Origin: Lentimicrobium sp. L6
Lineage (GTDB): Bacteria > Bacteroidota > Bacteroidia > Bacteroidales > UBA12170
Direction: 5' to 3'
Assembly: GCF_013166655.1 (NCBI RefSeq)
Contig: NZ_JABKCA010000041.1
Coordinates: forward strand, 1-48,936
Length of the DNA: 48,936 bases
Part shown: piece by piece, positions 4,564-36,996 of the stretch
Layout: each line of letters opens with the position of its first letter
Numbering within the stretch: position 1 is the stretch's first letter
Made by a program: the position numbers and the translations under genes
The notes under the pieces: generated by a model
The model's input: only the letters and a program-made list of their open reading frames with translations
Told to the model about the DNA's origin: nothing
Databases searched by the model: none

Positions 4564-4953
4564 ATGACACAGAAAATTCTTTCCATATTTTTAGTTGTGG
4601 CCTTTATGTCCTACCAATCTTATCATACATTGGTATATATCAACTATTATGTGAATTACGATTATTTTGTGAATGTGCTCTGCGAGAATAAAGACAATCC
4701 AGAGAAGCCAGCTTGTAATGGAAAATGCCACTTGAATAAGCAACTAGACCAGCAAAAACCTGCGCAAGAGGAGCATCCTTTTTCGAAAACAGTGGCTCCA
4801 ATATTCTATCCTGAGATTATCGCTATTTTGTTGCAAGGAGAAAATCAAAGCTTTGAACATATCAATGGAGGAAGTCATCATTGTTTGTCCCCTCCCCAAA
4901 TTGCTCAGCCTTTTTTAGATAATATCTTCCATCCCCCCAAAATGCTAGTTTAA
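4564..4953 (+). CDS. Small Cys-containing envelope protein upstream of copper receptor
   Basis: 129 residues with an N-terminal hydrophobic segment (residues 4-17) that is either a signal peptide or a membrane anchor. The notable feature is a cysteine cluster, CENKDNPEKPACNGKCHL, near residues 39-56, followed by a charged segment and a His pair (GGSHHC) further on. Cys and His in this arrangement suggest metal or disulfide chemistry. It stands directly before a TonB-dependent receptor with copper-ligand motifs, in the same direction, with no clear promoter between them. A role in copper handling is inferred from that context; the protein belongs to no family I can name securely. Confidence 0.6.
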   Translation: MTQKILSIFLVVAFMSYQSYHTLVYINYYVNYDYFVNVLCENKDNPEKPACNGKCHLNKQLDQQKPAQEEHPFSKTVAPIFYPEIIAILLQGENQSFEHINGGSHHCLSPPQIAQPFLDNIFHPPKMLV

Positions 4954-5014
4954 TTTTCTTGAACATACAGTTTTAATAAAATAATCTCAATAGAATGCAT
5001 AGCTACCCTAAAAG

Positions 5015-5115
5015 TCCTTTGTGGAACTTTGAGTGATCTTTGTGTCTTTTGTGATATGGCTTATTTAGTTATTGCACAAAGAAGGCTCAAAGAAGTACCA
5101 AGATTCACAAAGAAA
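5015..5115. repeat. CACAAAG-rich palindromic repeat, copy 2
   Basis: The left half carries CTTTGTGG, ACTTTGAG, CTTTGTG and CTTTTGTG; the right half carries CACAAAG, CTCAAAG and CACAAAG, with TTATTTAGTTATTG at the centre. The result is a long imperfect inverted repeat. It resembles copy 3 (21451-21557) in layout and lies between the small Cys protein and the TonB receptor. Confidence 0.6.
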
Positions 5116-5195
5116 AGTGAACTATACCTTCCTATTATTGACTTTAAGAATGCCTCATTGGGATTATATCTCATTCAAAACAAATCAAAAATTAA

Positions 5196-7259
5196 ATGAA
5201 CAAAATCAAATACATTTTGGGTATCTCCATCATTTTGCTTGGCATGAATAACTATGCCCAACAAGTGGATACCACATTAAATATTTCTGGACTTGAAGTT
5301 TTTGGCAACAGCCTAGGCACCGATGAAGAAATCAAGATCACAGAAAACAACAGAAGCAAAGAAGATGTGGGGAAAATCATCAAACAAAGCCCCAATATCA
5401 GCCTCATCAAAAGAGGAAACTATGCTACCGACCCCGTCATTAGAGGATTCAAAGCCGACCAATTACAGCTTTTGAGCAATGGTTTTATGCAAACCAATCC
5501 TGCCTGTCCCAATAGAATGGATGCCCCCACTTCTCATATCAACTTGGAGGACTTAGAATCCATTGAAATCATAAAAGGTCCTTATAGTGTGAGGTATGGA
5601 ATGAATACCGGAGGCATCCTCAATTTTAAATCCAAAGACCCAAGGGCAACAGATTCTTTTCAAGTACATGGTTATGCAGGATGGTTCTATCATACCAATG
5701 GAGAAAGTACTGATGGTCAAGCCAGAGTTCAAATTTCGGATAAAAAATATCTGCTCAAAGTTTATGGTGGACTTAAAGACTTCGGAAATTATAAAAGTGG
5801 AGACGGAACAGAAATCCTTTCCAGCTTTAAGCATTCCGATTATAGTGCGCAAGCCGCTTGGTTTATCAATCCTAAAAACCAGATTATCTTAGATTGGAAA
5901 CAATCCTTTGCCAAAGATGTGCTTTTTGCTGGATTGCCCATGGATGGCGATTTTGACAATTCCAGTACGGGTGCACTGCGTTATCTCTATAAAGATGCAA
6001 CAAAGAAAATCTATAGAGCCGAGTTTAAGGTTTTTGGGAATATGATAGACCATCAGATGAGTAATCACCGACGTCCTAATCTAAAAATTGTGGATGCCGT
6101 TTCTGCATTGCAATCACAAACCTATGGTGCACGTGGTGAATTATCCTATCGTATTTCGGAAAATCATCATCTTTTGTTTGGTGCCGATTATAAGTTAATT
6201 GGCAAACAAGGGGATAGAGAAAGAATAGTCTTCGAGAATCCTTGTACCGGAATGGTCATGGATCCACCAAAAACATTCACCGATGCCATTTGGCAAGACA
6301 GTAAGCAGAGCGATTTGGGTGTTTTTGTAGAATCTAATTGGCAGATTTCTGATGTATGGCAATGGAAGGCAGGAGCTAGATTCGATATGGTCTCATCCGA
6401 TATTCAAGAGCCAGCACCAGATTTTGAAGCCCTCTATCCTGATTTAGGCAAAAAAGACGATGTGGCTTTTATGCTCAACAGTAGATTGAATTATAAACTC
6501 TCAGAGGGGATGTTTCTAGAATGGTCTATAGGTTTGGGACAAAGAGCCCCAGAACTGATAGAAAGATACCTCAACCATTTAACCGTGGGCATGGATGCTT
6601 ATGAATATGTGGGGAATCCGAATTTGGAGATGGAGCAGAACTTCCAAAACGATTTGAAATTCAAGCTCAATAAGCAGAAATTCTCATTGGAGGCGGGAGT
6701 GTTTTATGCCTTGGTAAAGAATTATATCCAAGCCAATTTAGACACCACCTTAAGCAAAAAGTTTATGCCTTGCATGGAGCCTAAGTTTGCCAAGCGTTAC
6801 GAAAATGTGGAGGATGCTAGATTATATGGATTCGAGGCAGCATTGAAATATACCTTCTGGAAAAACTTGAATGTTTATGGAACGGGGTCTTATACCATTG
6901 GTGAAAACGTGACTATGGATGAGCCTTTGGCAGAGATTCCTCCCATGGAGTTTAATTTAGGTTTAAATTATGAAAGCAAACGCTGGGGCGCCACTTTTAA
7001 CTTCCGCTTTGTGATGGAGCAAGACCGAGTTTCTTTGAGTTTTAACGAGAGTAAATCCGATGCTTTTCAGGTATTCGATTTATCGGCCCGCTATCATATA
7101 GGAAGAGGTTTAAATGTGACCATGAACATAGAGAATATCTTCGATGAAAACTATGTGGAGCATTTAAGCCGAGCATACAAAAACCAAATACCAGGCACTA
7201 ATATGGTGTATTATGAGCCCGGTAGGAACTTTATATTGGGGCTGAGTTTTAAATTCTAG
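5196..7259 (+). CDS. TonB-dependent outer-membrane receptor, OprC/NosA-like (copper)
   Basis: A 687-residue TonB-dependent receptor with a signal peptide (residues 1-21), an N-terminal plug (about 45-150) and a 22-strand-type barrel ending in the aromatic residue of FILGLSFKF. The plug segment NPACPNRMDAPTSH gives a Cys104-x-x-x-Met108 pair, and IDHQMSN in the barrel gives His286-x-Met288. In OprC the same CxxxM and HxM elements form the copper site, so copper ions are the predicted substrate. There is no N-terminal CarboxypepD-type extension as in SusC proteins and no SusD partner. It follows the small Cys protein by 242 nt. The gene ends in a strong terminator. Confidence 0.85.
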   Translation: MNKIKYILGISIILLGMNNYAQQVDTTLNISGLEVFGNSLGTDEEIKITENNRSKEDVGKIIKQSPNISLIKRGNYATDPVIRGFKADQLQLLSNGFMQTNPACPNRMDAPTSHINLEDLESIEIIKGPYSVRYGMNTGGILNFKSKDPRATDSFQVHGYAGWFYHTNGESTDGQARVQISDKKYLLKVYGGLKDFGNYKSGDGTEILSSFKHSDYSAQAAWFINPKNQIILDWKQSFAKDVLFAGLPMDGDFDNSSTGALRYLYKDATKKIYRAEFKVFGNMIDHQMSNHRRPNLKIVDAVSALQSQTYGARGELSYRISENHHLLFGADYKLIGKQGDRERIVFENPCTGMVMDPPKTFTDAIWQDSKQSDLGVFVESNWQISDVWQWKAGARFDMVSSDIQEPAPDFEALYPDLGKKDDVAFMLNSRLNYKLSEGMFLEWSIGLGQRAPELIERYLNHLTVGMDAYEYVGNPNLEMEQNFQNDLKFKLNKQKFSLEAGVFYALVKNYIQANLDTTLSKKFMPCMEPKFAKRYENVEDARLYGFEAALKYTFWKNLNVYGTGSYTIGENVTMDEPLAEIPPMEFNLGLNYESKRWGATFNFRFVMEQDRVSLSFNESKSDAFQVFDLSARYHIGRGLNVTMNIENIFDENYVEHLSRAYKNQIPGTNMVYYEPGRNFILGLSFKF

Positions 7260-7281
7260 CTTTAATTTGTATCAGGAAAAG

Positions 7282-7316
7282 CCCGATAACTCTTTTTTTT
7301 GTTATTGGGTTTTTTT
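7282..7316 (+). terminator. Rho-independent terminator after the copper receptor
   Basis: CCCGATAAC pairs with GTTATTGGG (one mismatch) around a T-rich loop, followed by seven T at 7310-7316. It separates the receptor from the convergent defence operon. Confidence 0.75.
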
Positions 7317-7415
7317 GTGGGAAACAACCTTATTCTTATGAGTAAATATTATTCAAAGCGAAGAATATTTTATCTTATTTAAAACATTATGGGAAACAAA
7401 GCAGCTAAAAATATT

Positions 7416-9782
7416 TTAAATGTTTAATCCATATTTCTTTACTTTTTCTAAAGAATTATTAACAATTTGTAATCTTCTTAAATCAATAGATTCATGTTTT
7501 TTCAGTTTTAAGATAACTGTCTTAATTACGCTGACTTCTTGAAAGCTTAACTTTCCAGTCTGTTCACCAAGAGCAATAATTCTATTCCAAGTACTAGAAT
7601 CGATTAGTTTTAGTCTATTATATATGGTTGAGGGCATGCTGAGATCTGCTTCTTCAAATCTGCTAAGAGCTTTGACCTTGTCAAAATCCACATTGTTTTT
7701 AACTAGGACATCTATTATGATTCCACCTCTTTTTATTTCAAAATCCGTGAAATTACCATTCGTTTTAATTTTTTTTCTAATAGTAGTTATGTAATTATGT
7801 TGTATTTCTGATAAATAATCAGTCCTCAACATAAAAATACAAAGTCCGTCCCAAAAACGTAAACCTAGAGAAGTAATTTTCTCTAGTGTATTATATCTTT
7901 CACTTTCAGCAACATCATCCACGATAGTTTCATATCTAGATTTATAATCTGCTTCTGTAATTAAGTATTTATTGACAACATTTAAATCTAAAGGATAATT
8001 TATTTTTTCCTTTAATAATGTCCAGTTTTTCTCACTCTTTGCAGCTTCACTTATTAGTGCTACATCTAATCCAGTGAAAAAGTGATAAACAAAAATAAGT
8101 AGTTTTTTTAACTCTACCTGAAGTTCTGTTGCAACATTTTGATTGTCCCATATTGAACCTAGATTTAATTTATTGTCAGTAATATGGTGGAAATAGGATA
8201 AGGTGTAAGCTACTGTGTGTGATTTAATATTAGTATCTCCAATTGGATCACTATTCTTTCTGCCAAATAGCTTATCTGTTGCTCGAAATAAAATGGCATT
8301 AGCTACAATATCAATCCAAAATATACGATTAGCTTTATTCTTCTTAAATTTTTTCTCTATTTCGCGAAGGAAAATAGTATAATTCTTTTGTGAGCCTTTT
8401 GATACATGAAAAGGTTTCAACTCCCATAAGTTTATATACTTTGCTACATCTGATTTTATTATAATCTGATTCTTAGGATACTTTAATTTAAAAGCATTCT
8501 GTTTACTAACGGTTGGCTCTTTATTTAAAGCTTCTTTATATTGACCTTTTACACGTTCGAAAAACCATACTGTCTGCTTATTTCTGTCATTAAGATCTAT
8601 TGCGAAAGTAGTTCTGGAAAGCTCTTCAAGCCTTTGTAATAATGGGTTATTAGAAGTCAAATCTAGTTCAGAAACTTTATTCTGACTATTGGCATATCGT
8701 GATATAAATGGGACAGTTTCATCTTTTTTTATTTCATCCTTAATTACAGTAAGTTTCATTTGAACAAAAACCTCGGAGATATTAGCCTCTTTATATTTTT
8801 TTGCAGTATGAAATAGTGAAGCTGTTGTTTGGCCACCATTTACAATTTGAAAATCTTTTACCGAAGTAATAACTAATTGGCCTTTATCTGTAATTTTGGT
8901 CTTTACAGCTTGAGCTGTTGTAGCAAGACCATTATTGTATGGCAAAAACATATGCGGATTGAAGCGTATTGTATCTCTTATTCCCTGATTAACTTTCCCC
9001 GTTTGTTGTAAAAATGCTCTAACATTACTTTCAAGAAGTCTTACTCCATAATTTCTATATAATACTGAAAGGACAGTCCCTGGTACAATTGCAAGGTAAC
9101 ACTCATATAGGTCGTTTTTAGAAGGCATTTCTAAACAAGGTATTGTTTCGCCCAGAGTTTCCTCGAAATCTATCTCTATTGGCTCTCTATTTCCTGAAGA
9201 AAGTGATAACCTATGAAGTCTCTCAATGTCCCAAATCTTAAAATTAATCAAGACTTCCTCCATGTTTATTAATTTAAAATCTGAAGGAGGATCATACGGA
9301 ATATCTCCATTTGACAACACAAAAACATTAATTCTGATTATTTTCTTTCTTTCCTTGGTCAGTAAAGAAGCTAACCCATATGCTTCAATGGATGGCTCGA
9401 TATCATCTAAGAATCCTTTTAAAGCTGCGTTAATAAAACCCGAAGACCACTTTATTAGTTTCTCGAATTCAGCTTTAGTTATTTTATAAAACTCATTTGT
9501 GTCTTTATACGAAGAGATAAATATATCAATGTTCTCATAACCTTCCTCTAAGGCATAACCATTAATTTTAAACTGTATGTTTTCAAACTTGTTTTCTTTG
9601 ATGTAATGACATAATCTCACTCCTTCAGTTTCTCCAGCATCAGCTAAAATATCCATTACGTATTCAGTAAACTTGTTTTCCTTAGAATCGCCGTTATCAT
9701 CAGAATAGACTAATGATTGTACCTCATGAAATAGGTTTTGAATAAATAAATCTAATTCGAAATCTATATTATTATTCTGCAT
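7416..9782 (-). CDS. AIPR-family (abortive infection phage resistance) protein
   Basis: 788 residues, last gene of the five-gene island. Conserved AIPR elements are seen in order: YNNGLATTAQ (near residue 280), FQIVNGGQTTAS (near 312), a beta-rich VQMKLTVIKD segment, and ISRYANSQNKVSELDL (near 360). AIPR proteins were first noted in lactococcal abortive infection and recur in restriction-modification islands; their biochemical activity is not settled. The start codon overlaps the stop of the nuclease gene by one base (TAATG), so translation is coupled. No transmembrane segment or signal peptide is visible, so it acts in the cytoplasm. As the terminal gene it would be made last, which fits an effector role, but that is inference. 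Confidence 0.85.
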   Translation of the reverse strand: MQNNNIDFELDLFIQNLFHEVQSLVYSDDNGDSKENKFTEYVMDILADAGETEGVRLCHYIKENKFENIQFKINGYALEEGYENIDIFISSYKDTNEFYKITKAEFEKLIKWSSGFINAALKGFLDDIEPSIEAYGLASLLTKERKKIIRINVFVLSNGDIPYDPPSDFKLINMEEVLINFKIWDIERLHRLSLSSGNREPIEIDFEETLGETIPCLEMPSKNDLYECYLAIVPGTVLSVLYRNYGVRLLESNVRAFLQQTGKVNQGIRDTIRFNPHMFLPYNNGLATTAQAVKTKITDKGQLVITSVKDFQIVNGGQTTASLFHTAKKYKEANISEVFVQMKLTVIKDEIKKDETVPFISRYANSQNKVSELDLTSNNPLLQRLEELSRTTFAIDLNDRNKQTVWFFERVKGQYKEALNKEPTVSKQNAFKLKYPKNQIIIKSDVAKYINLWELKPFHVSKGSQKNYTIFLREIEKKFKKNKANRIFWIDIVANAILFRATDKLFGRKNSDPIGDTNIKSHTVAYTLSYFHHITDNKLNLGSIWDNQNVATELQVELKKLLIFVYHFFTGLDVALISEAAKSEKNWTLLKEKINYPLDLNVVNKYLITEADYKSRYETIVDDVAESERYNTLEKITSLGLRFWDGLCIFMLRTDYLSEIQHNYITTIRKKIKTNGNFTDFEIKRGGIIIDVLVKNNVDFDKVKALSRFEEADLSMPSTIYNRLKLIDSSTWNRIIALGEQTGKLSFQEVSVIKTVILKLKKHESIDLRRLQIVNNSLEKVKKYGLNI

Positions 9783-10765
9783 TATATTATTTCTTTAGTA
9801 ATCTCATTAATATCTACTTCAAAATCCACACAGGCAATAGGAGAAATCTCATAAGACACTTTGGAAATTGCTTGATTAATTATTTCGGAAGTAATTCTAG
9901 GGAAATTATCAGTAACTTTATAATATAGTTCCCTTGAAATAGAATATCCGATTTTATCATATTCTGACTCTGTTTCCAGAGAAATCCCAAGAATTTCCAA
10001 TTTAAGATTGAACTCTCGCTTCAAATTAACAAATAGGTTAAGTATATTTCTTATTTCTGTTATGATATTAAAAAGGGTATTTTCCCCGTTAGGATATTCG
10101 TTTAACTTATAGAATGAAATAAACAATATTTTCAGCTCGTCAATATCTAATTGAAATTCATTTGCTATTTTAATGCTGGGCGTATTTGCAATAGAAGTTT
10201 TAACTTCCACGGCGATTCCATTGAAATAAAAATCTTGATTAGCCCCATCGGGAGCTTGCCAAGCATTAATAATTTTATCTTTATTAATCCCGTCTAGCTC
10301 AAGCAGAAGCTTTAAAAAATATAATTCTCCATATAGGCCTCTTTGTTGCTGTGAACTTAATAATCCATTTGTAAATTTCCCGAATAGTTTTCTCCAATAA
10401 TTGATACGATTTGAAATGATTAATAGAGCATCTTCAGAATTTTTCACATCTGCGAGACTCTGAATAATATCTTCTATAAACATAACAAACACATCAGCTA
10501 ACTCTTCTTCTAAGAGAATTAGGACAAGCTCCTTTTGGTGTTCATTTATTTGCAGAACCTGCACCTCAACACCTATAAAACGCTTTAAATAATTTGGATG
10601 TACTTTTACTTGTGGGTCTATCTCTAAAGTGAATATTTTAGCTTTAGATACAGACACTGTTCCAATACAGCATTTCAAGTACTTGATATCTTCTACCCTA
10701 TGTCTTATAACTTCATTTTTAAATGAAGCTGCCTGACTATTCCATATTTCTTTAATTCTACTCAT
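9782..10765 (-). CDS. PD-(D/E)XK motif protein (DUF4420 family), putative nuclease
   Basis: 327 residues. The nuclease core is visible: Glu147 in GLYGELYFL, Asp178 in NQDFYFNG and Glu187-Val-Lys189 in AVEVKTS, matching the E...D...ExK layout of restriction-endonuclease-like folds with all metal ligands present. The protein is therefore expected to cut DNA and is the only intact nuclease-like active site recognised in the island. Its start overlaps the end of the Z1 gene by 8 nt and its stop overlaps the AIPR start by 1 nt. The family is commonly found beside Z1 ATPases and MORC-like proteins. The DNA specificity and cleavage pattern cannot be read from the sequence. Confidence 0.85.
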   Translation of the reverse strand: MSRIKEIWNSQAASFKNEVIRHRVEDIKYLKCCIGTVSVSKAKIFTLEIDPQVKVHPNYLKRFIGVEVQVLQINEHQKELVLILLEEELADVFVMFIEDIIQSLADVKNSEDALLIISNRINYWRKLFGKFTNGLLSSQQQRGLYGELYFLKLLLELDGINKDKIINAWQAPDGANQDFYFNGIAVEVKTSIANTPSIKIANEFQLDIDELKILFISFYKLNEYPNGENTLFNIITEIRNILNLFVNLKREFNLKLEILGISLETESEYDKIGYSISRELYYKVTDNFPRITSEIINQAISKVSYEISPIACVDFEVDINEITKEII

Positions 10766-13505
10766 CTGTGTCTATATCATCATCGGATTGTGTATCTTCA
10801 AAACTAGAACTATAAGGACGTGCTGCATATTCCACTTTTTCCTCATTTTTAATTTCAGGAAAGACTAAACCCCATCCAACTAATGGAATACCATCTTCAA
10901 GCTTTGTATCAACCGTCCAATCAAGAGGATAAATAACTAATAATGATTTTCCTACTTTAGCTCTTATTTTCTTGACCTCCGATTCTTTTGGGTTCTTGTT
11001 ATTCATTTCCAAGTCTAATCTTCTATGAGTAGGATCGAAAATGTTATTTTTTGATAAGGTAAAATAAGAATCACCACCGATTTTAGTATTTGTTCTTTTG
11101 GATAAACCTGCTACAACAGAGCCATTTAAATACTTGAATTCATATGAATTTTCACTTTCAGAATTTATAATAAGAGCAATAGTCCAATCTAATAATAAAC
11201 CTTTACTATTTTGTTTTTGTATATATCGATTTAGCAATTCTGTACGGATATTTGGTTGATTAGTGGAAAACCCCTCAAGAAAACTCATGACTTTTTCAGG
11301 CGCTACATTTTCCCAATTTAATCCATTCAGCTTCTTTGATAAAGTATATCTTTTCTTGGGATTTTCTAAACGAACCAGTAAACTATTCAAAACATTTAAA
11401 TTATTCTTTACAATTTTCTCGTTCTTTATTAATTGATACGTCTGTGTTATTTTACCAGAAAAACCTACTAGAATCTTTTGGTGCTCTCGCATCTTTCCTG
11501 CAGCTGTAATGTTTAATATTCCTGGATGAGTTCTTATTTTTAATCTATAATCAACCGGCTGTTTATTGCTAGCTGCCATTTCATCGAAATCGGCTCGCAT
11601 TTCCTCCGTAGCCAGCGTTATATGCCTATACCAATTTATGAGTTGATTTGTAGTGAATAGTCGACATAAGTCAATATAACCAGGTCTGTACCCAAACCAA
11701 CGTCCCATTTGCATTAAAGAATCATATAGACGAGATGCTCTTAAATAATAACTCACAGATAAGCCTTCCAATGTAATGCCTCTTGCAAGACGATTTCCAC
11801 CAACGGCTATAACAGACATCCCATTCTTATAATCATCGTACTTAATATCTTCAATATTATGGTATTCTAGTAATCTTGTATTTTTTGTACCGTGAACAGA
11901 GCGAACTTCGATTTTTGAAACAGCATCGTTTAACACTAATATTATTTCATCCCAAGAATGCTGTTTGATTTTATGGTCTGTATATGCGATATTATCTTTT
12001 ACGTTATCAGTTGTTGGAATAAAGTCATTTTCAAATAGATCTTTCAATTCATTTATCAAATTCCCTTGCCCTGATCTTATCTGAAGTTTATAATCTCGCA
12101 TAATTTCATTTACAAGCCATGCAACGCGGTCAATCCAAGCAACATATAGTGCCACATGAATAAGCATAGAATTATGTTTGTTTTCCTGCCCTCTTAAGCG
12201 TCTTATTGCACAGGTAAGAATAAATGATTTGAGCGCTTCTTTTAAACTTGATGGTACATCGTCTGGCAAATCTCCTTTATTCTTCGAGTTCAGTTTTAAA
12301 GGGAAATAGGGCTCTTGATCTTCTGCGGTTCTAATTATATCCAATCCTTCAAAATCTTCACCAGTATCGCTATTCTCATAACCAAAGACCTGTACTGCAC
12401 CAACATAATTTGAAGGTGGTGGAATATTTACAATAAAATCACGTGGAAATAAGTCTTCACCTATCTTCATCCGAATATCTTTAACTATAGTTTCTAGAGT
12501 ATCGCTCCAAGAGGAGGGAATAAAGATATTTGCATAAGGAGTGGCTGTATATCCAATAAATGTATTTTGATTAAAAAGATTTAATAAAGTACGAATTAGT
12601 CTATTTATTGTTTTAATATCCAATTCTGATCCTGAATTAACGGAAGCATTGTCTGCTTCATCATCAATTAGGAGCAAAGGCACATCAAATATTCTATTGT
12701 CGCCTTTCTCATCCGTTGTAGCAAATTGATGAAGCCATAAAATAAGATTTTCAAGAATGCTTTTGTTTTTTTTAATAACCAAAACAGTTGGGCTTTTCCC
12801 TCCAATAGGAACACTTATTCTGCTAGCAATATTCCTATTAAAATCCCCTTTTGCATCCGATGAAGTATATGAATAGATCTCGGTTTCTGCTTTAATATAA
12901 CCAACACCAGTTTTTATATTTCGCTGTTTTAAGATAAAGTCAGAACTATTTCGTCCAATAAAACCTTCATCAATTCGACTTTGTGTCTGTGCTCTTAAAC
13001 TATTATGAATACCAGCAATGACAATAATCAACTTATATCCAGCATCAGTAGCTTTATTTATTAATCCCGTGTAATTTGCTGTTTTTCCTGATTGAACATT
13101 CCCCACAACCATTCCTCTTCGATCCCACCTACCTTTTACTTTAGGATTAACACATTTATCTAGAATCTTATCTGTAATATCATCAAGTGAACCCATCGGA
13201 AACGATGCATCTTTTTGATTCATATATATCTTATACCTATTCCATAATTCAGGATTTATTTTTGATTTTTCATCATAAAGCCAAGGAAGAACATCTTCTG
13301 CAACTAATAAAGTTGCCTCTTTTGAGTAAATATCAAAATCAGCTTCCAATTGTGAGATCAATTCTTCTTTATCAAGACTATCAAAACCAGGCATTAGAAA
13401 AATATTTTCAACTTCAATCGCTATAGTTGCATTTACAATATCCTTCTTCTTATATTTTTGGAGTAGAACATGGGCAATATTTCTCGCACTTTCAAAATGA
13501 CTCAT
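10758..13505 (-). CDS. Z1 domain-containing ATPase/helicase-like protein
   Basis: 915 residues. The ATPase has the Walker A motif GNVQSGKT at 135-142 (Lys141), the Walker B motif LLIDDEAD at about 278-285, motif III-like GYTATPYA, and the helicase motif VI region QMGRWFGYR near residue 600, preceded by GGNRLARGITLEG. This is the Z1 family, a superfamily 2-like ATPase found in predicted restriction systems, often with a nuclease encoded separately. It would couple ATP hydrolysis to DNA translocation or remodelling. The C-terminus is acidic (DTQSDDDIDTDE). The gene starts 1 nt after the MORC-like gene ends and overlaps the nuclease gene by 8 nt, which suggests the proteins form one complex. Confidence 0.88.
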   Translation of the reverse strand: MSHFESARNIAHVLLQKYKKKDIVNATIAIEVENIFLMPGFDSLDKEELISQLEADFDIYSKEATLLVAEDVLPWLYDEKSKINPELWNRYKIYMNQKDASFPMGSLDDITDKILDKCVNPKVKGRWDRRGMVVGNVQSGKTANYTGLINKATDAGYKLIIVIAGIHNSLRAQTQSRIDEGFIGRNSSDFILKQRNIKTGVGYIKAETEIYSYTSSDAKGDFNRNIASRISVPIGGKSPTVLVIKKNKSILENLILWLHQFATTDEKGDNRIFDVPLLLIDDEADNASVNSGSELDIKTINRLIRTLLNLFNQNTFIGYTATPYANIFIPSSWSDTLETIVKDIRMKIGEDLFPRDFIVNIPPPSNYVGAVQVFGYENSDTGEDFEGLDIIRTAEDQEPYFPLKLNSKNKGDLPDDVPSSLKEALKSFILTCAIRRLRGQENKHNSMLIHVALYVAWIDRVAWLVNEIMRDYKLQIRSGQGNLINELKDLFENDFIPTTDNVKDNIAYTDHKIKQHSWDEIILVLNDAVSKIEVRSVHGTKNTRLLEYHNIEDIKYDDYKNGMSVIAVGGNRLARGITLEGLSVSYYLRASRLYDSLMQMGRWFGYRPGYIDLCRLFTTNQLINWYRHITLATEEMRADFDEMAASNKQPVDYRLKIRTHPGILNITAAGKMREHQKILVGFSGKITQTYQLIKNEKIVKNNLNVLNSLLVRLENPKKRYTLSKKLNGLNWENVAPEKVMSFLEGFSTNQPNIRTELLNRYIQKQNSKGLLLDWTIALIINSESENSYEFKYLNGSVVAGLSKRTNTKIGGDSYFTLSKNNIFDPTHRRLDLEMNNKNPKESEVKKIRAKVGKSLLVIYPLDWTVDTKLEDGIPLVGWGLVFPEIKNEEKVEYAARPYSSSFEDTQSDDDIDTDE

Positions 13506-13506
13506 A

Positions 13507-14988
13507 TTATTTTAAGATTTCAATTAGTTGAGGAAATTCATTAAAAGGTTCAATATTCAAAATTTGTTTAATTGCAATATCTTTACTAATTCCAGATATT
13601 TTAAGAGATGAAAACATCATTTGAGCCAATTGAGCAGTTCCGGTATCTAGCTCCTTGGTTACATTTCTTAATTCAATGCTCTCGGGATTCTCACTGTAAT
13701 TCTGAATAATCGATTCCACAGGAGTTGTATTTCCAATTAATTTAAGCAGCGATTTTAATTCTTTAGGCTCTATTTTTTGAGCGTTAAGAATTTTCGAAAC
13801 GATGGGATGCTCTTCATTAATGTAATAATTTATTGCACCATCTCTATGCTTTGACGCTTTCCAAATTGATTGAAAACTGAAACTTGTTATTGAATCATCA
13901 AGCATTAATTGATTACCACGAAACCTATAAATATTAGCTGCATTAGACCTCGTGAGCTTACCTAGTCGGACTAAATCTTTCCTGATTATGATTGATGGTG
14001 TAGCTGTAGCTTTTTTTATATCTATTTTCCAATCATGATCAAGTTTATTGGGGATATCTATTAAAATCCTAGCATTCTTATAATGTTCATTTTTGGTGAA
14101 TAAGCCTAGCCAATCACCATAAAGCAGGAGTCTTTCATTTCTATAAATATAGAAACCCTGCAATTTATACCAGTCTTCAGTCTTGGCTAAAATTCTTTCT
14201 TCAGCAGTAATTTTTGAAATATGGGGTAACACATAACATTTCACATGAACATTTCCATCATCCAAAAGTTCATCAGAAACTAATTGTCCACCATCCTCCT
14301 CTTTCATAAATGGATCCCAAGGTAAAACGAGTGATTCATTTATCCATAACTTGAATTTTCTTTTTTCAAGAAAACGATGAAATACAATACTTAAATGACT
14401 CTCAACTAGAGCAAGTTCTTCTAGAAAAACAATTCTAGCGGCTTCATTTTCTTTATGAGAATTACCTATTAGTCGATCAAGTTTTTCCCAAATAACACAA
14501 GTTCCACTCTTTTGACTAGATAATCTTTCGAAATATTGCTCGTTAGATATATAATCAAGTAATGACCATTTTCCAGTTTTATTAACAAAGTCTAAATCCC
14601 AAGCTCTTTTTATTGTATTAAAACCATTTTTTTTTGAGGCAACTGTCAGGTTTTTACATTGGGAAAATGAAGATGTTTTCAAACCTAGGCCAAAGCGACC
14701 AAGATCATTGGCATCTCTTTCATCATTAGGATCTTTACTTCCGGGAGTCATTGCATTAACTAATGTCTGAACATCCATACCTTCCCCATCATCACAAATG
14801 GTTAACCAAGATTCAGCTCCATTCCATTCATAGTTTATCCATATATTTTGAGACTTAGCTGAAATACTGTTGTCAATAATATCCGCAATAGCGGTTTGAA
14901 GATTATACCCAAAAGCACGAAACGTATTAATCATAGCCCCTGCTTTGGGTGGAGTTTCTTCTGAGATATATTCAGTAAAATCTAACAT
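13507..14988 (-). CDS. MORC/paraMORC-like GHKL ATPase
   Basis: 493 residues with an N-terminal GHKL (gyrase, Hsp90, histidine kinase, MutL) ATPase. The N-box is IADIIDNSISA (Asp36, Asn40), the second motif is CDDGEGM (Asp66), and the lid/G2 motif is GRFGLGLKTSS (97-107). A middle S5-like segment and a C-terminal helical region follow. The N-box position usually held by the catalytic Glu is Asp36 here. In MORC and MutL relatives, ATP binding drives dimerisation around DNA. Placed between the methyltransferase (24 nt away) and the Z1 ATPase (1 nt away), it fits the prokaryotic MORC-like proteins predicted to act in restriction-modification. It is not a histidine kinase: no H-box or receiver domain is present. 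Confidence 0.85.
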   Translation of the reverse strand: MLDFTEYISEETPPKAGAMINTFRAFGYNLQTAIADIIDNSISAKSQNIWINYEWNGAESWLTICDDGEGMDVQTLVNAMTPGSKDPNDERDANDLGRFGLGLKTSSFSQCKNLTVASKKNGFNTIKRAWDLDFVNKTGKWSLLDYISNEQYFERLSSQKSGTCVIWEKLDRLIGNSHKENEAARIVFLEELALVESHLSIVFHRFLEKRKFKLWINESLVLPWDPFMKEEDGGQLVSDELLDDGNVHVKCYVLPHISKITAEERILAKTEDWYKLQGFYIYRNERLLLYGDWLGLFTKNEHYKNARILIDIPNKLDHDWKIDIKKATATPSIIIRKDLVRLGKLTRSNAANIYRFRGNQLMLDDSITSFSFQSIWKASKHRDGAINYYINEEHPIVSKILNAQKIEPKELKSLLKLIGNTTPVESIIQNYSENPESIELRNVTKELDTGTAQLAQMMFSSLKISGISKDIAIKQILNIEPFNEFPQLIEILK

Positions 14989-15012
14989 AATTTGATTTTA
15001 AGAAAACGTATT

Positions 15013-16644
15013 TTATTTGATCTTTTTAAGTATACTAATTACAATGTCCCCAATCTGTTTGGCCAAAAAAGGAGGCACTGCATTTCCAACCTGATGATAT
15101 TGATGTGTTCTTGCACCACAGAAATAATAATTATCAGGAAATGATTGAATTCGTGCTGCTTCACGTACTGTTAAGCTTCTGCATTGTAATGGATCATAAT
15201 GAATGAAATAGTGTCCATCTTTTGATATATGACTGGTTATAGTTGTTGCAGGAAATTCTGGGCGTTGTGTACGAAAACGGTCTGCAAATTTTCCACCTTT
15301 AGCACTTTTATGCTCTGGTAATAACCACTCTGGATAATCTCTTAATTTGGGGAAGTCACCATTCTTTTGCAAATAAATAGAAGAAAAAAGATATCTAGCC
15401 AAATCTTCCTTCAAATGCGTGCGTGATTCATGATTTAATATTCCAGTTAATCTTGGATCTTTATACCAATCCTTTAAAGGGTTTTCTTTCTCTGCATCCT
15501 TGAATTCTAGAAAATTTAACCCTTCGCTACTTGGCGATTGTTCCTTTTTATTTAATTTGATGTCTTTAAATTCTTCAGCAAGTTTTGCTCTATAAAAGGA
15601 AACGGAATCTTCCCAGTTTTCTTGATTATTAATAATTTTTTTATAAATATGCTTGCCGTTTTCTTTGGAACCAATAATTTCTCTTCCAATTCCGCTTCTT
15701 ATTTTGGGTAAGCTCCCGATTACATTCTTTAGCAAAACGAGTTCGGATTTCTCGAGTGTTTTGATATTTGAAGCATCAATATCCTGTCTAATGCCTAAAA
15801 ATATTACACGATGTCTTTTTTGAGGAACACCAAATTTTTCAGTTTTAATTAGGAAGGCTCTGTCGTCTTTATATTCCGGAAATCCATTTTCATCAAATGA
15901 ATCAGGCTCTTTTACAAAAGAAAATACTTTGTATGTCGGAGAATCTAGGTTTTCAAATACAGATCCTGGGTTTTTAAGATCATTCTTCATCCAAGTAAAG
16001 ACTTTCTCTCCATCTACTTTTGCTGATAATAATCCTTTTACATTTTCCATCACAAAGATTGCAGGGTGATGTTTGGCTATTATTCTTAGATACTCTTTAT
16101 ATAGAAATACTCTATGATCTTTTTTATTGACATTATCTTTTAATTGATTCCTTGACCTTCCAACAAGTGAAAATGCTTGACAAGGGGGGCCTCCGATTAA
16201 AACCCAATCTTTTTTAGGTGATAAACAGGCTGAAATTCGTCTGTCTATTTCTTCGTGTGCTTTTTTAATCTGTTGATCATTATATCCCTCTTCATGAGGT
16301 AATTCAAATTTCCAAGCTTCATTTTCAGCATTCTGCCATTCTTTTTGATTCTTTTCAATCAAAGATTCAAAGAGTTCTTCTTTTTTCTTTGAGTCGTTTT
16401 CTTTGATGTAATCATAGTATAATTCAGGAACGTCTTGTGGTTTAAATTGTCTGTAAAAGCTTCTTAGGCGTAAAGTTTTATGTGCATGGTAATCTTTCTC
16501 AATTGATAGTTTTATACTAAAGACTCTTTCATTTTTTTTATTATAAATTGATGAAAAGCCCTCGCCTAAGCCACCCGGACCTGCAAAAAGATCTATAACT
16601 GGAAATGCATATTTGTCAGGTTGATCCGTTACTTTCTTTGTCAT
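15013..16644 (-). CDS. DNA (cytosine-5) methyltransferase
   Basis: 543 residues, first gene of the island. Motif I is DLFAGPGGLGEGF (18-30), motif IV is GGPPCQAFS with the catalytic Cys155, motif VI is FVMENVKGLLS, motif VIII is QKRHRVIFLG, and motifs IX-X are RSLTVREAARIQSFP and HQVGNAVPPF. All catalytic elements are intact. An insert of about 90 residues between motifs I and IV, containing many charged residues, makes it longer than typical Dcm-type enzymes. It transfers a methyl group from SAM to C5 of cytosine; the target sequence is set by the region between motifs VIII and IX and cannot be read here. It would protect host DNA from the island's nuclease. Confidence 0.93.
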   Translation of the reverse strand: MTKKVTDQPDKYAFPVIDLFAGPGGLGEGFSSIYNKKNERVFSIKLSIEKDYHAHKTLRLRSFYRQFKPQDVPELYYDYIKENDSKKKEELFESLIEKNQKEWQNAENEAWKFELPHEEGYNDQQIKKAHEEIDRRISACLSPKKDWVLIGGPPCQAFSLVGRSRNQLKDNVNKKDHRVFLYKEYLRIIAKHHPAIFVMENVKGLLSAKVDGEKVFTWMKNDLKNPGSVFENLDSPTYKVFSFVKEPDSFDENGFPEYKDDRAFLIKTEKFGVPQKRHRVIFLGIRQDIDASNIKTLEKSELVLLKNVIGSLPKIRSGIGREIIGSKENGKHIYKKIINNQENWEDSVSFYRAKLAEEFKDIKLNKKEQSPSSEGLNFLEFKDAEKENPLKDWYKDPRLTGILNHESRTHLKEDLARYLFSSIYLQKNGDFPKLRDYPEWLLPEHKSAKGGKFADRFRTQRPEFPATTITSHISKDGHYFIHYDPLQCRSLTVREAARIQSFPDNYYFCGARTHQYHQVGNAVPPFLAKQIGDIVISILKKIK

Positions 16645-16770
16645 TTAGTAGTAATTAAAAAATTAGTTAGTTGCAAATACTTGTTATGTTCTTCACCAAG
16701 GATACTTACAATAGTAGGATTGAGGAAGCCGTTAATTTATTTAGTTCAATTTTTCGATCAATGCGAAGCC

Positions 16771-16778
16771 CAAAGCTA
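16771..16778 (-). promoter_or_regulatory. Putative -7 element for the defence operon
   Basis: CAAAGCTA on the plus strand reads TAGCTTTG on the minus strand, matching TAnnTTTG. It would give a 5' leader of about 120 nt before the methyltransferase ATG. I see no convincing -33 element, and a weaker candidate (AGTATTTG) lies at 16674-16681. Confidence 0.35.
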
Positions 16779-17004
16779 AGAAAAAAACCATTAACCAATA
16801 TATCAATTCGTATAATTAGGTAAATCTCATAAGCTTTGATTCAATCTACCCCCTCCAAAATCCTAATCAAATCATCATTCACTGGCTTTGCCTTGGTGTT
16901 TTAATGCTAAAAAAATTTGTTGCTTATTTATATCAAAATGTTACTTAGTTTGTGTTATGTGTTGATATACTGATTGATATGTTCTTGTTTTTTATGTTGC
17001 TTAA

Positions 17005-17314: not shown

Positions 17315-19099
17315 ATGAAGAGATTCTTATTTATTCTGTTGATTTTGTGTTCTATTGCTGGGCTGGCTCAAGTGGACTCCTCCAATTATAAGATGAATAT
17401 AGAGCAACTGAAAAGATATACAGAATTATCGCAAGATGAGCATTTTAATTTAGAGGAGCGTAAACTATTTGCCCATAAAGCCTATCAGCTTTCTAGAGAT
17501 TTAAACCTGCCCATACCGGGTGTCAAAGCACAAATTAGCTATGGCTATATTTTGGCTCAATCTGGATATTATGCTAAGGCATTCGAGGTGTTTTTAGATG
17601 CCAATGCCATATCAGATTCCTTGGGCTATCATTCCACTGAAGACTGGCGAAGAAAAGCCTATTTGCTCAATGTAGAAGGCATACTCTATAAAGAACTCGG
17701 CATTTATAATAAATCTTTAAAAGCCTATTATCAGTCCTTAAGTATTAGCGATTCAGTAGATTGGAAAGTAGGGCAGTCCACTGCATTGAATAATATTAGT
17801 AATCTCTATTTTATTCAAGGAAACTTAGATCAAGCCATACAACTTCAACATAAAGCCCTTCAAATTGCTCAATTGGCCAATGACCTTGGTAAAAAATATG
17901 ATGCCTATTTTAATTTGATGGTGATGTATGCGGATTTGACTCCTCTGGATTCCGCATTTCTATATGCCGAAAAATGTAAAGTAATATTACCCAAGCTGCA
18001 AAGTCAGTATCAAAACTGCTTTTTATATGAGGAATATGCTGGTTTGTTTTATAAATCGGGCGATAGGGAGCAAGCTCAATATTATTATGCTAAAGGATTA
18101 GAGATTGCGGTAGATCATCAATTTGAAGAGCTTCAGTTGAAATGTAACGAAGGACTTGGGAATATTGCTAAGGATCGGCTTTCTTTTGATTTAGCCATTT
18201 CCTATTTGACCAAGGCATTGGTTCTGAGCGATTCTATTTCTGTTCCCAAATTAAAGGTAGAGGTATTATTTGAATTGGCTGATTTGTATGAGCAAGAGAA
18301 TAAGCTGAATGAGGCCTATTTTTATTTAAAAGAAGCCCATAGTATTCAGGATTCTATTAATGAGACCTGGAAATCCATACAGCAAAGTGAGGTTCATCAG
18401 ATTTATTTACTAGAATGGCAAGAACAAGAAAATAGACTGCTCGAAAATAATCTAGCTTTAGCCCAGCTTAAATTAAATCAGAGGAATCTGATGTTGATAG
18501 GTTCTGTGATAAGCCTGATTGTTCTGCTGTGGTTGCTAACCATCCTCTATAGAAAAAGAGGTTTTGAAAAGAAAATGAGTCAACAAGTGAATGAGCAAAA
18601 CCAAACCATACAAGAGCAGCAGGACCTTATACATCAGCAAAACGAGAAGCAATTGAAACTGGAGCTAAATGCTAAATCTCGTCAACTGGCTACCTATTCG
18701 CTATCTTCTATAAAACATGTGCAGGCCACCGAAGAAATCATTAGCCGTTTGAGTCAGCTCATATATAACCAAGCCCTAAAAGCAGGAACCAAGAAAGAAT
18801 TGGAACAGGTGATTCAGCAGATGAAGCGCGACCTGATGAAAAGTGATTGGGAAGAATTTAAAACCTATTACCAACAAGTGCATCCTTCTTTTTATGAAAA
18901 CCTGATTGCTTATCATCCCGACCTCAGTGCAAACGAGGAGAAATTATGTGCTTTTATCAGTTTGGGTTTGAGTACTAAAGATATTGCTTCGCTTACTTTT
19001 AGGCAGGTGAGAAGTGTGGAATCTGCTCGATTAAGACTACGCAAAAAACTAAACATTGAAAATGCAGATCATCTTTTTGATTATTTGAAGCAATTTTAG
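17315..19099 (+). CDS. TPR-repeat membrane protein with C-terminal LuxR-type HTH
   Basis: 594 residues. A signal peptide (1-18, ending AGLAQ) precedes a periplasmic array of tetratricopeptide repeats (about 25-360) with typical pairs such as GILYKELGIYNKSLKAYYQS. A single membrane helix near 391-411 (LIGSVISLIVLLWLLTILY) is followed by a glutamine-rich coiled coil and a cytoplasmic C-terminal helix-turn-helix of LuxR character (LSTKDIASLTFRQVRSVES, about 550-570). This layout is a common one-component sensor in Bacteroidota, thought to carry signals from the periplasm to DNA. Targets are unknown. It is followed by a secreted protein gene with its own promoter, so an operon is not evident. Confidence 0.8.
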   Translation: MKRFLFILLILCSIAGLAQVDSSNYKMNIEQLKRYTELSQDEHFNLEERKLFAHKAYQLSRDLNLPIPGVKAQISYGYILAQSGYYAKAFEVFLDANAISDSLGYHSTEDWRRKAYLLNVEGILYKELGIYNKSLKAYYQSLSISDSVDWKVGQSTALNNISNLYFIQGNLDQAIQLQHKALQIAQLANDLGKKYDAYFNLMVMYADLTPLDSAFLYAEKCKVILPKLQSQYQNCFLYEEYAGLFYKSGDREQAQYYYAKGLEIAVDHQFEELQLKCNEGLGNIAKDRLSFDLAISYLTKALVLSDSISVPKLKVEVLFELADLYEQENKLNEAYFYLKEAHSIQDSINETWKSIQQSEVHQIYLLEWQEQENRLLENNLALAQLKLNQRNLMLIGSVISLIVLLWLLTILYRKRGFEKKMSQQVNEQNQTIQEQQDLIHQQNEKQLKLELNAKSRQLATYSLSSIKHVQATEEIISRLSQLIYNQALKAGTKKELEQVIQQMKRDLMKSDWEEFKTYYQQVHPSFYENLIAYHPDLSANEEKLCAFISLGLSTKDIASLTFRQVRSVESARLRLRKKLNIENADHLFDYLKQF

Positions 19100-19270: not shown

Positions 19271-21184
19271 ATGAAAAAACTATTATTTTTATTCTTAATA
19301 CTAAGTCTGGGCGCTCAAGCACAATGGACTGATAATGCAGAAGTCAATACCATTATTAATGATGATGCCAATGCACATTATGTACCTAAGGTGGCCAGCA
19401 CGCCAAGTGGTGAATACTTTTTTAGTTGGTATGGTGGAGCAGGAAATTTAGATATGAATTTGGCTTTCTTGGCCCATGATGGTACTGATAATTGGGAAAA
19501 TGACATGAAGGTGAGTATACATCCTCAGAATTCTTGGGTAGACGATTATACACTCCTTAGTGATATGGATGGAAATGCCATTGTGATATTTTCCGACATT
19601 AGAAATGGAAATAAAGATGTAGTGGTTTATAAGATAGATGCCGAAGGTAATAACTTATGGGGAGAAGATGGAATTGTATTTCCGGTTTCTGGTTCTGATG
19701 AATATCAGCCTACGGGAGTGGTCACTAATGATAATGCCCTTGTTGTTTTATTCTCCACTAATTATACAGCAGGAACAGATAAGATCTTTGTTCATAAAAT
19801 ATTAGAAGATGGTACTTTGCCTTGGGGTGAAGAAGGAAAATCTTTCTCGGGATTTGGTTCTAAATGGGCTTTCCCTTCCGCTATAGCCAATGAAGATGGC
19901 GGCTTTAGTTTTGGTTTCTTTAAAGAAACAGGGAATTTCCCAGCCTTAACTCGTCATATTGCTGCCATCAGATGCGATGCTGATGGTGAAATGGTTTGGG
20001 ATTCAGAAAAAATAATTACCGAAGCTGGAGGAATTGCTGCTTGGGACGATTTGCACCTTTTTGGAACTGGTGATGGTAGCTTATATTTTGCTTGGGACGA
20101 CGACCGCTATTTTAATATGACCAATGAAGTATATGCTCAATATGTGGACGCTGATGGTGTGGTAAAATGGGAAACCGATGGCCTATTATTAGGAACAGAA
20201 GCCAGTGGACATCAACTTTCAGCAGTGATTTCTGGTACCAATACCAATGGAGAATTTGTGGTGCTATGGAACCTGTTAAATGGAAACCAGAGTATGGCTG
20301 CCTTAAAATACCAAAGAGTGAGTGCAGATGGCGAATTATTAGAAGGTGATGCAGGAGCTACCATAATTGGAATGAACGATCAACTTCAAGCAGGTTCTCA
20401 AGCCGTACAAATAGAGGATGAAACTTATTATTTTTATCGTAATTTCTTTGAAGGTTCTACCTATTTAGGAAGTTTAAATATGTTGGCATTAGATGCCGAG
20501 GGTGAACAAGTTTGGGAGAGCCCAACTGAGATTAGCAATTCTCAAAATTCAAAATCTCATGCTTTCTTAAGCAAATTTCATAGCAATCAGGCTGTAGTTA
20601 CATGGAGCGATGAACTGGGAAATGATACCAGAGTGATGGCTCAGAATATTTTTACCGATGGTAGTATTGGAGAATCTGAATTCGATTTTGCAACGGTAGT
20701 TTTTACCATCACAGATGAAGAAAGTAGTGAGGCCATAGAAGGAGCAGAAGTAAACTTGGACGGCTCTATCATGCTAACCGATACACAAGGAGTAGCCACC
20801 TTTAGTAATATTGTATTTGGGGAAGATATTGATGTTACTGTGAGTAAAGAAGCTTTCTATTCCTATGAAGGAACAATAGATATTGCTGAAGAAGTGGTGG
20901 AGCTTGATATTAGTTTAGAACCTATAATTGATCAGGTTTCAAATTTCAGTGCCGCTCAGTTTAGTGTATATCCAAATCCAGCTCAGGAGCAGATTTCTAT
21001 TCGCTTGAATAAGGCTCAGGAATATCGCATTCAATTATTAAACCAATTGGGACAGGTGCTCAGTGACGTTTATTCAAATGGCAATACAAGTCATATTGAT
21101 ATTTCCTCTTACAAAAGAGGAGTGTATTTCATCAAAATAATCTCAAATGATACTTATCAAGTTAAAAGTGTTGCTTTTGAGTAA
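19271..21184 (+). CDS. Secreted protein with T9SS type A sorting domain
   Basis: 637 residues. A signal peptide (1-18, ending AQAQ) sends it to the periplasm. The main part (about 25-470) is a beta-rich repeat with recurring aspartate-glycine-tryptophan patterns, such as DAEGNNLWGEDGIVF and DADGVVKWETDGLLL, suggesting a beta-propeller-like surface. A small Ig-like/carboxypeptidase-regulatory domain (about 475-555, ending LDISLEP) follows. The C-terminal sorting domain begins at FSVYPNPAQEQ (564) and ends GVYFIKIISNDTYQVKSV, the hallmark of type IX secretion. No enzymatic motif is seen, so function is unknown; surface attachment or a structural role is plausible. It ends in a strong terminator. 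Confidence 0.8.
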   Translation: MKKLLFLFLILSLGAQAQWTDNAEVNTIINDDANAHYVPKVASTPSGEYFFSWYGGAGNLDMNLAFLAHDGTDNWENDMKVSIHPQNSWVDDYTLLSDMDGNAIVIFSDIRNGNKDVVVYKIDAEGNNLWGEDGIVFPVSGSDEYQPTGVVTNDNALVVLFSTNYTAGTDKIFVHKILEDGTLPWGEEGKSFSGFGSKWAFPSAIANEDGGFSFGFFKETGNFPALTRHIAAIRCDADGEMVWDSEKIITEAGGIAAWDDLHLFGTGDGSLYFAWDDDRYFNMTNEVYAQYVDADGVVKWETDGLLLGTEASGHQLSAVISGTNTNGEFVVLWNLLNGNQSMAALKYQRVSADGELLEGDAGATIIGMNDQLQAGSQAVQIEDETYYFYRNFFEGSTYLGSLNMLALDAEGEQVWESPTEISNSQNSKSHAFLSKFHSNQAVVTWSDELGNDTRVMAQNIFTDGSIGESEFDFATVVFTITDEESSEAIEGAEVNLDGSIMLTDTQGVATFSNIVFGEDIDVTVSKEAFYSYEGTIDIAEEVVELDISLEPIIDQVSNFSAAQFSVYPNPAQEQISIRLNKAQEYRIQLLNQLGQVLSDVYSNGNTSHIDISSYKRGVYFIKIISNDTYQVKSVAFE

Positions 21185-36976: not shown

Positions 36977-36984
36977 TATCTTTG
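36977..36984 (+). promoter_or_regulatory. -7 promoter element TATCTTTG
   Basis: A consensus element. The longest open frame would start at TTG 36982, inside this element, and so cannot be right; ATG 36997 is the true start, with a leader of only a few nucleotides. Confidence 0.6.
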
Positions 36985-36996
36985 CGGTGTAAGCCT

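Follow-up and report, generated by a model that had tools for sequence, protein, structure and literature searches.

A methylase-led member of the MZA anti-phage family in Lentimicrobium sp. L6

The mzaABCDE (MZA) system, of the E. coli and Salmonella type, was reportedly put to experimental test by Gao et al. in 2020. A 2022 article calls this system validated and, in its accessible portions, presents a predicted system resembling it, whose 'type II' (II-A/II-B) combines the same parts, including a methylase (PMC9523054). Iyer, Abhiman and Aravind (2008) had placed such components in restriction-modification neighbourhoods of MORC proteins, Z1 helicases and nucleases of the restriction endonuclease (RE) fold (PMC2292703, accessible sections). 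Restriction that depends on ATP and employs a Z1 ATPase, a nuclease and a protecting methylase is described for CglI and NgoAVII; according to the accessible parts of these two articles, the Z1 ATPases hydrolyse ATP on double-stranded DNA, and the partner nuclease needs them to cleave (PMC4267653, PMC5737866). Here we analyse a five-gene operon in a stretch of 48,936 nucleotides (nt) from Lentimicrobium sp. L6 (contig NZ_JABKCA010000041.1, assembly GCF_013166655.1), hereafter the window. The operon is a methylase-led member of the described MZA anti-phage family, not a new kind of system. Beyond this assignment, we count how widely the methylase accompanies the core, place the sigma factor in a single clade, and compare a genomic slot between two species.

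Gene content and protein families of the operon

Five open, closely spaced reading frames (ORFs) span positions 7416-16644 on the minus strand. In operon order they encode a C5 cytosine DNA methyltransferase (C5 methylase; 15013-16644, 543 amino acids (aa)), the predicted self mark; an MzaB-like, MORC-type GHKL ATPase (13507-14988, 493 aa), a predicted DNA clamp or loader; an MzaC-like superfamily 2 ATPase with a Z1 domain (10758-13505, 915 aa), a predicted DNA motor; an MzaD-like PD-(D/E)XK protein of the DUF4420 family (9782-10765, 327 aa), a predicted nuclease; and an MzaE-like AIPR protein (7416-9782, 788 aa), a predicted sensor or regulator. Read from 5' to 3', successive genes are separated by 24 nt and by 1 nt, and then overlap by 8 nt and by 1 nt. 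A first-pass annotation of this DNA had described five intact genes with these spacings, each with its signature motifs. The ORF coordinates bear this out, and the key residues are at least 93% conserved in family alignments of 69 to 84 sequences each, window included. The contrast in composition with the surroundings is modest: G+C is 31-33% in the operon versus 39% and 36% on its two sides, and at third positions 22-25%, versus 42% in the adjoining TonB-receptor gene and 26-36% in genes further right.

Operon genes 2 to 5 are named by PADLOC, in order, MzaB (4e-96), MzaC (1.1e-161), MzaD (6.8e-15) and MzaE (4.3e-87), and NCBIfam gives them the same four names, every score lying under its equivalog cut-off. 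Identity to the proteins of an annotated E. coli mza locus is 37% for MzaB, 35% for MzaC and 32% for MzaE, over full-length alignments, and 27% for MzaD over 220 columns. As for MzaA, the sigma-70-like protein, a hidden Markov model (HMM) built from two sequences only found no match in the window.

The methylase matches Pfam DNA_methylase (3.1e-45) and NCBIfam dcm (6.5e-43, over the cut-off); in PADLOC it matches DrmMII best (7.3e-92) and also MTase_II, and its closest solved relative is M.HaeIII (8.4e-18). Conserved residues are P154-C155, E200-N-V202, Q275/R277/R279 and G520-N521/V523. No other gene of the 5.14-Mb genome matches PF00145, and no Vsr gene was found in the window or in the rest of that genome. 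MzaB matches HATPase_c_3 (1.3e-32) and, over the GHKL domain only, the PDB profiles of MORC4 (2.5e-8) and MutL (8.8e-7). Its conserved residues include D36, D39-N40-S41 and D66/G68/G70. The catalytic residue of MutL is a glutamate; the aspartate at that position in MzaB, Asp36, could mean slow turnover. MORCs are defined, in the accessible text of PMC2292703, by a GhXhhpXXRhl motif in the S5-like domain. Residues 278-288 of MzaB, GFYIYRNERLL, fit this motif, with G278, F279, Y280, Y282, R283, R286 and L287 at least 93% conserved in 83 sequences.

MzaC matches the Z1 family (6e-78) and conserves Q138-SGKT142, D281-D-E283, D285, T320-ATP323 and Q599-MGRWFGYR607 in 84 sequences. MzaD matches DUF4420, a PD-(D/E)XK family (1.3e-54); E147, D178, E187 and K189 are invariant in 50 sequences, and D178-F179, E187 and K189 are at least 93% conserved in the family alignment. 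Its AlphaFold2 model has a pLDDT (predicted local distance difference test) score of 91.9. The PDB profile comparison returned no solved relative of MzaC, MzaD or MzaE; a match to a designer PPR protein covered fewer than 50 positions and was taken as spurious.

Recurrence of the gene order and of the methylase

A six-sequence MzaC alignment, scanned over 84,980 genomes, gave 460 confirmed candidates, and we examined the best 80, a sample biased to the kin of the window. Genes were called with HMMs derived from sequences of the window and of plasmids, in stretches reaching at most 10 kb per side. In 67 of these 80 loci, MzaB, C, D and E follow one another in this order on the same strand. Eight of the other 13 end at a contig edge (L012, L013, L019, L032, L052, L061, L065 and L070) and five are uncut. 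A C5 methylase is present in 63 of the 67 complete loci, as scored by an HMM from six diverse methylases that counts any C5 methylase in the fetched stretch. The gene lies directly upstream of mzaB, on the same strand and within 150 nt, in 27 of the 67; this exact five-gene order occurs in Bacteroidota, cyanobacteria, Chloroflexota, methanogens, Verrucomicrobia, Calditrichota, Alphaproteobacteria and one actinobacterium. The first-pass annotation would have been refuted by an order conserved in no other genome, which these 27 loci contradict, and its reading as a single restriction-modification-type defence operon, joining a methylase, a MORC-type GHKL ATPase, a Z1 motor and a PD-(D/E)XK nuclease, is supported by the Pfam and PADLOC matches, the MORC motif and the conserved order.

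As a background, PF00145 gave 20 match rows, some of them fragments of one gene, in 21 relatives totalling about 69 Mb. The expected number of chance C5 methylases per 22-kb locus is about 0.006, although defence genes cluster anyway. Vsr accompanies 41 of the 67 loci, which fits real 5-methylcytosine.

An MzaA-like sigma factor is found in 12 of the 67 loci, 11 of which also have a methylase and 11 a Vsr gene. A diverged sigma factor could be missed by the two-sequence HMM at its 60-bit threshold; L060, which adjoins the sigma clade, has a 38-bit match, under this threshold. On a quickly built MzaC tree of 84 rows, with long branches flagged by the program, the distribution of the sigma factor takes a single change and that of Vsr eighteen. 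Since the MzaA sigma factor is confined to one clade, the methylase looks like the general partner.

The core genes evolve together. Across 62 loci, among them the window and five loci from plasmids, the pairwise distances of MzaB, C, D and E correlate with r 0.84-0.91. All correlations, among core proteins and between core and methylase, exceed those of 500 permutations, which ignore relatedness. We considered MzaD as a recognition subunit tracking the methylase. Sharing a methylase class lowers the distance of MzaD by 0.011 (9 of 1000 permutations as low) and that of MzaB by 0.014 (0 of 1000), with MzaE and MzaC going in the opposite direction; given such small effects, and permutations that ignore relatedness, this idea was rejected.

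Several loci carry additional genes. In L011, a 1225-aa gene (4831-8508) called CARF_STK_AAA by PADLOC and a 409-aa gene with no PADLOC match lie between methylase and mzaB. Next to several MZA loci there is a second, larger GHKL ATPase of 712-751 aa, perhaps a paraMORC, which scores 23-32 bits with the MzaB HMM (L002:2108-4321, L003:245-2383, L035:5164-7419, L041:15846-18011 and L050:1235-3373). Two sigma-type loci have a second, longer AIPR gene of 883-932 aa after mzaE (L073:15505-18303 and L089:14472-17123). L021, L026 and L030 show the arrangement methylase, MORC, other genes and a longer Z1 protein (1046-1058 aa), with no recognisable MzaD or MzaE, and possibly form a distinct subtype; one of the inserted genes in L021 is a weak PADLOC PDC-M58A match.

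A putative restriction mechanism and its alternatives

The explanation that we consider probable is that of a methylase-led MZA operon performing ATP-dependent restriction of unmethylated DNA. MORC and MutL ATPases close on DNA. This family knowledge, together with the Z1 ATPases described in the accessible parts of the CglI and NgoAVII articles (PMC4267653, PMC5737866), suggests a self mark for the methylase, a clamp for MzaB, a motor for MzaC and a nuclease for MzaD. The methylase would mark host sites with 5-methylcytosine, and MzaB would close as a clamp on unmarked incoming DNA. MzaC would translocate along the duplex, and MzaD, brought there by the MORC clamp and the Z1 motor, would cut the foreign DNA. 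MzaE, the least certain part of this scheme, would sense or license the complex rather than act as an RNase toxin. We infer every biochemical step, including 5-methylcytosine marking, clamping and translocation, from family membership.

Several observations weigh against this reading. The NCBIfam scores fall far under their cut-offs (389 bits versus 850 for MzaB, 649 versus 1500 for MzaC, 98.5 versus 420 for MzaD and 369 versus 1050 for MzaE), so that the operon is to be taken as a member of the wider family and not as an E. coli-type equivalog. A C5 methylase is absent from the fetched stretch of four of the 67 complete loci: L015 and L036, where a contig end lies at mzaB or shortly before it, L076, which is cut downstream, and L075, with flanks of about 7-8 kb. 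The five uncut incomplete loci are L021, L026 and L030, which lack D and E, L022, with an AAA-type protein and no D, and L085, with a short C. Distances of the methylase follow those of the core loosely (r 0.33-0.44 over the same 62 loci), although taking the nearest methylase was wrong for L089, which lowers these values somewhat. In three E. coli mza loci that we viewed, mzaA is present, but the annotation shows no C5 methylase in some 13 kb on either side. Foldseek comparisons of the AlphaFold2 models with the PDB gave nothing at E 0.001 or better, neither for MzaD, whose top rows are protein kinases, nor for MzaE.

The absence of a linked methylase at the three E. coli loci implies that the core may act without one. 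The methylase could then be an independent, exchangeable neighbour, serving its own restriction system or laying an orphan epigenetic mark, with MzaBCDE as a methylation-independent DNA sensor, as perhaps in E. coli. The loose correlation also speaks for this, as do other restriction enzymes near some loci and the comparison of L078 with L079/L082, whose cores are 79-89% identical but whose methylases are unrelated, alike only in short conserved stretches. L020 and L088 likewise have cores 46-65% identical and methylases at 32%; among the methylases in the fetched stretches, these two cases appear to be clear exchanges. A third case, L073 versus L089, was withdrawn because a second L089 methylase is 67% identical to that of L073; two methylases also occur in L084 and in L022, the latter outside the 62 loci. 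An independent methylase nevertheless seems improbable to us in view of its presence in 63 of the 67 complete loci, in 27 of them immediately upstream of mzaB. The window's methylase class, moreover, occurs in 16 of 62 loci, across phyla and in both arrangements, and its member here is the sole C5 methylase found in the genome. E. coli itself has C5 methylase and Vsr genes elsewhere, as its matches to both families, obtained as controls of the family search, indicate.

Could a resident E. coli C5 methylase serve MZA? We put this forward as a hypothesis. With MzaC as a DNA query, 55 of 5,426 E. coli genomes gave a match, none covering 80% of the query. IS421 interrupts mzaB in L122 (9889-12731) and L123 (9751-12602), two of the three E. 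coli loci above, so that some annotated MZA loci are probably inactive.

A wider proposal, which we offer tentatively and regard as rather unlikely, is the following: the cytosine methylase, not the sigma factor, would be the general MZA partner, and a MzaBCDE core with no site preference of its own would work with exchanged methylases, reading methylation through MORC, Z1 and AIPR. MzaA would be a regulatory addition acquired a single time within one clade, MZA in E. coli would lean on a chromosomal C5 methylase, and the promoter of the slot described below would drive any defence cargo. Should the methylase prove to be the usual partner, MZA could be tested as a restriction-modification system whose self mark is known; tools that search for defence systems by MzaA-E alone would overlook one part, and a direct assay would become available for MORC and AIPR proteins of prokaryotes.

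Is MzaE a toxic effector of abortive infection? The first-pass annotation had proposed an abortive-infection module, which rests on the family name. MzaE matches AIPR (5.3e-87) and AIPR_N (4.3e-38), the Pfam title of the latter pointing the same way, and in the accessible part of PMC3506569 AIPR proteins are said to carry an N-terminal HEPN RNase. MzaB, C and D would then act as a sensor releasing MzaE upon unmethylated or damaged phage DNA, and the many invariant polar residues of the MzaE core, resembling an active site, would suit such an effector. However, the HEPN motif R-X4-6-H occurs within the first 250 residues of only 22 of 52 MzaE sequences, and no histidine is conserved. The N-terminus of the AlphaFold2 model is not a helical bundle: two helices are followed by three strands (alpha-alpha-beta-beta-beta). 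MzaE also evolves in step with MzaB, MzaC and MzaD. A suicide role through a HEPN RNase is therefore not supported by these alignments and this model, and we give abortive infection in general little chance. The Foldseek rows of MzaE for FokI (probability 0.44) and Shedu SduA (0.38), short of the E 0.001 level, are no more than hints of a nuclease-like N-terminal domain.

Residues 38-596 of MzaE align with the 598-aa E. coli MzaE at 32% identity, and Q312-IVNGGQTT320 is a conserved stretch. The AIPR core may be distantly related to DndB: hhalign, in one of nine planned comparisons, gave E 0.0029 over 225 columns, versus 0.27-0.95 for six unrelated profiles, and aligned the GGQT region with DGQHR and the N-x-QN region with FxxxN. 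We also considered MzaE as ParB- or GmrS-like, after the families related to DndB (ParB/Srx fold), which the profiles did not support (MzaE core versus GmrS 0.22, versus ParB 0.58; DndB itself gave 0.00034 and 0.47, respectively). DndB-type domains are linked to the recognition of modified sites in the accessible part of PMC4619093, and this weak profile link would fit a methyl- or modification-dependent, type IV-like restriction, in which modified phage DNA is the target and the linked methylase has a regulatory role or supplies the sensed mark. Such a complex would, however, be turned against its own genome by the linked methylase, and in CglI and NgoAVII, which are known Z1 systems, the methylase protects (PMC4267653 and PMC5737866, as far as accessible); we thus hold this explanation to be highly improbable. 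Restriction of unmethylated DNA is the reading that we retain.

A shared cargo slot, and comparison with known systems

Among 11 genomes of the genus, MzaC occurs only in that of the window. In a sister genome, G002, the side of the TonB-receptor gene aligns up to position 7322 of the window and the alignment resumes at 16769-16882; the stretch between, 7323-16768, is replaced by a single gene encoding a 657-aa protein (L115:10405-12378), PDC-S41 according to PADLOC (9.6e-281) and a Schlafen-group-3 helicase according to Pfam. The slot is thus occupied by another defence candidate in the sister species. The recurrence of the neighbours, in order, in 67 of 80 relatives and the presence of the flanks without the block in the sister genome place this gene block beyond chance.

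The shared flank block at 16769-16882 (minus strand) reads into the operon and is 83% identical to its counterpart in G002; over the final 44 nt, 43 are identical, and different cargo follows. At its edge stands a promoter-like element, TTG-N17-TAGCTTTG, which we take to resemble the Bacteroidota promoter consensus; the chance expectation for TAnnTTTG is 0.2 in a 356-nt region. Both cargos read away from the promoter-like block, starting 124 and 73 nt beyond it. G000 and G002 each contain a single good match to the block; in three other relatives the matches are weak and partial. On the other side, inside the shared flank, a terminator-like hairpin read from the sequence by eye (CCCGATAAC...GTTATTGGG followed by a T run; 7279-7314) lies between the converging TonB-receptor gene and mzaE.

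A simple swap is disfavoured, since G002 keeps collinearity over just part of the right flank: the window gene at 17315-19099 finds no more than remote matches there, and two other genes lie in between. In another relative, G005, the flanking genes align with less than 0.8 kb between the pieces, a near-empty site. No convincing direct repeats were seen at the island edges. The exchange of cargo between two species at one promoter offers a compact and clear case of a defence slot. Immediately upstream of the promoter block, the shared flank (16842-16900, minus strand) resembles the tail of a former coding sequence, which may be left over from an earlier cargo. The remaining annotated window resembles an ordinary Bacteroidota chromosome (RecQ, SHMT, ammonium transporter), and three of its proteins have C-terminal sorting domains of type IX secretion (19271-21184, 23643-25076 and 36982-39018).

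How does the operon relate to described systems? With mzaABCDE it shares homologues of MzaB-E in identical order and orientation; it differs in starting with a C5 methylase, in having no sigma-factor MzaA, and in the approximately 190 additional C-terminal residues of its MzaE. The claim that this exact five-gene set had no experimental description does not stand as it was made, since four of the genes are MzaB-E and the combination with a methylase is that of type II in PMC9523054. In the accessible portions of that article, type II has all five components, a Z1 protein of about 925 aa, a PD-(D/E)XK protein, a cytosine methylase, an AIPR protein and an associated MORC; we liken the two by components, not by gene order or subtype A/B. 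The identity to mzaBCDE quoted there is about 20%, versus 27-37% measured for the window proteins. A new system type was dropped as an assignment, its parts being already named by PADLOC, NCBIfam and PMC9523054. A search of the open-licence literature found no mechanistic study of MZA or of a prokaryotic MORC.

The neighbourhoods of PMC2292703, in the sections accessible, share with the operon a MORC with the signature motif, a superfamily 2 helicase with the motif D-T-h-h-Q-x-u-R-h-F-G, an E-D-ExK nuclease, a cytosine methylase and AIPR, the last named in a figure legend. The window differs in having no Vsr gene, and the likeness is one of components, not of the exact five-gene order. With CglI and NgoAVII (PMC4267653, PMC5737866) the operon shares a DEAD-Z1 type ATPase, the Z1 label there coming from a reference title, accompanied by a nuclease and a methylase. 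The nuclease of CglI and NgoAVII belongs to the PLD superfamily, and the accessible parts of these articles describe no MORC, DUF4420 or AIPR partner; none of the five operon proteins has a Pfam match to a PLD-superfamily nuclease, and the candidate nuclease here is the PD-(D/E)XK protein MzaD.

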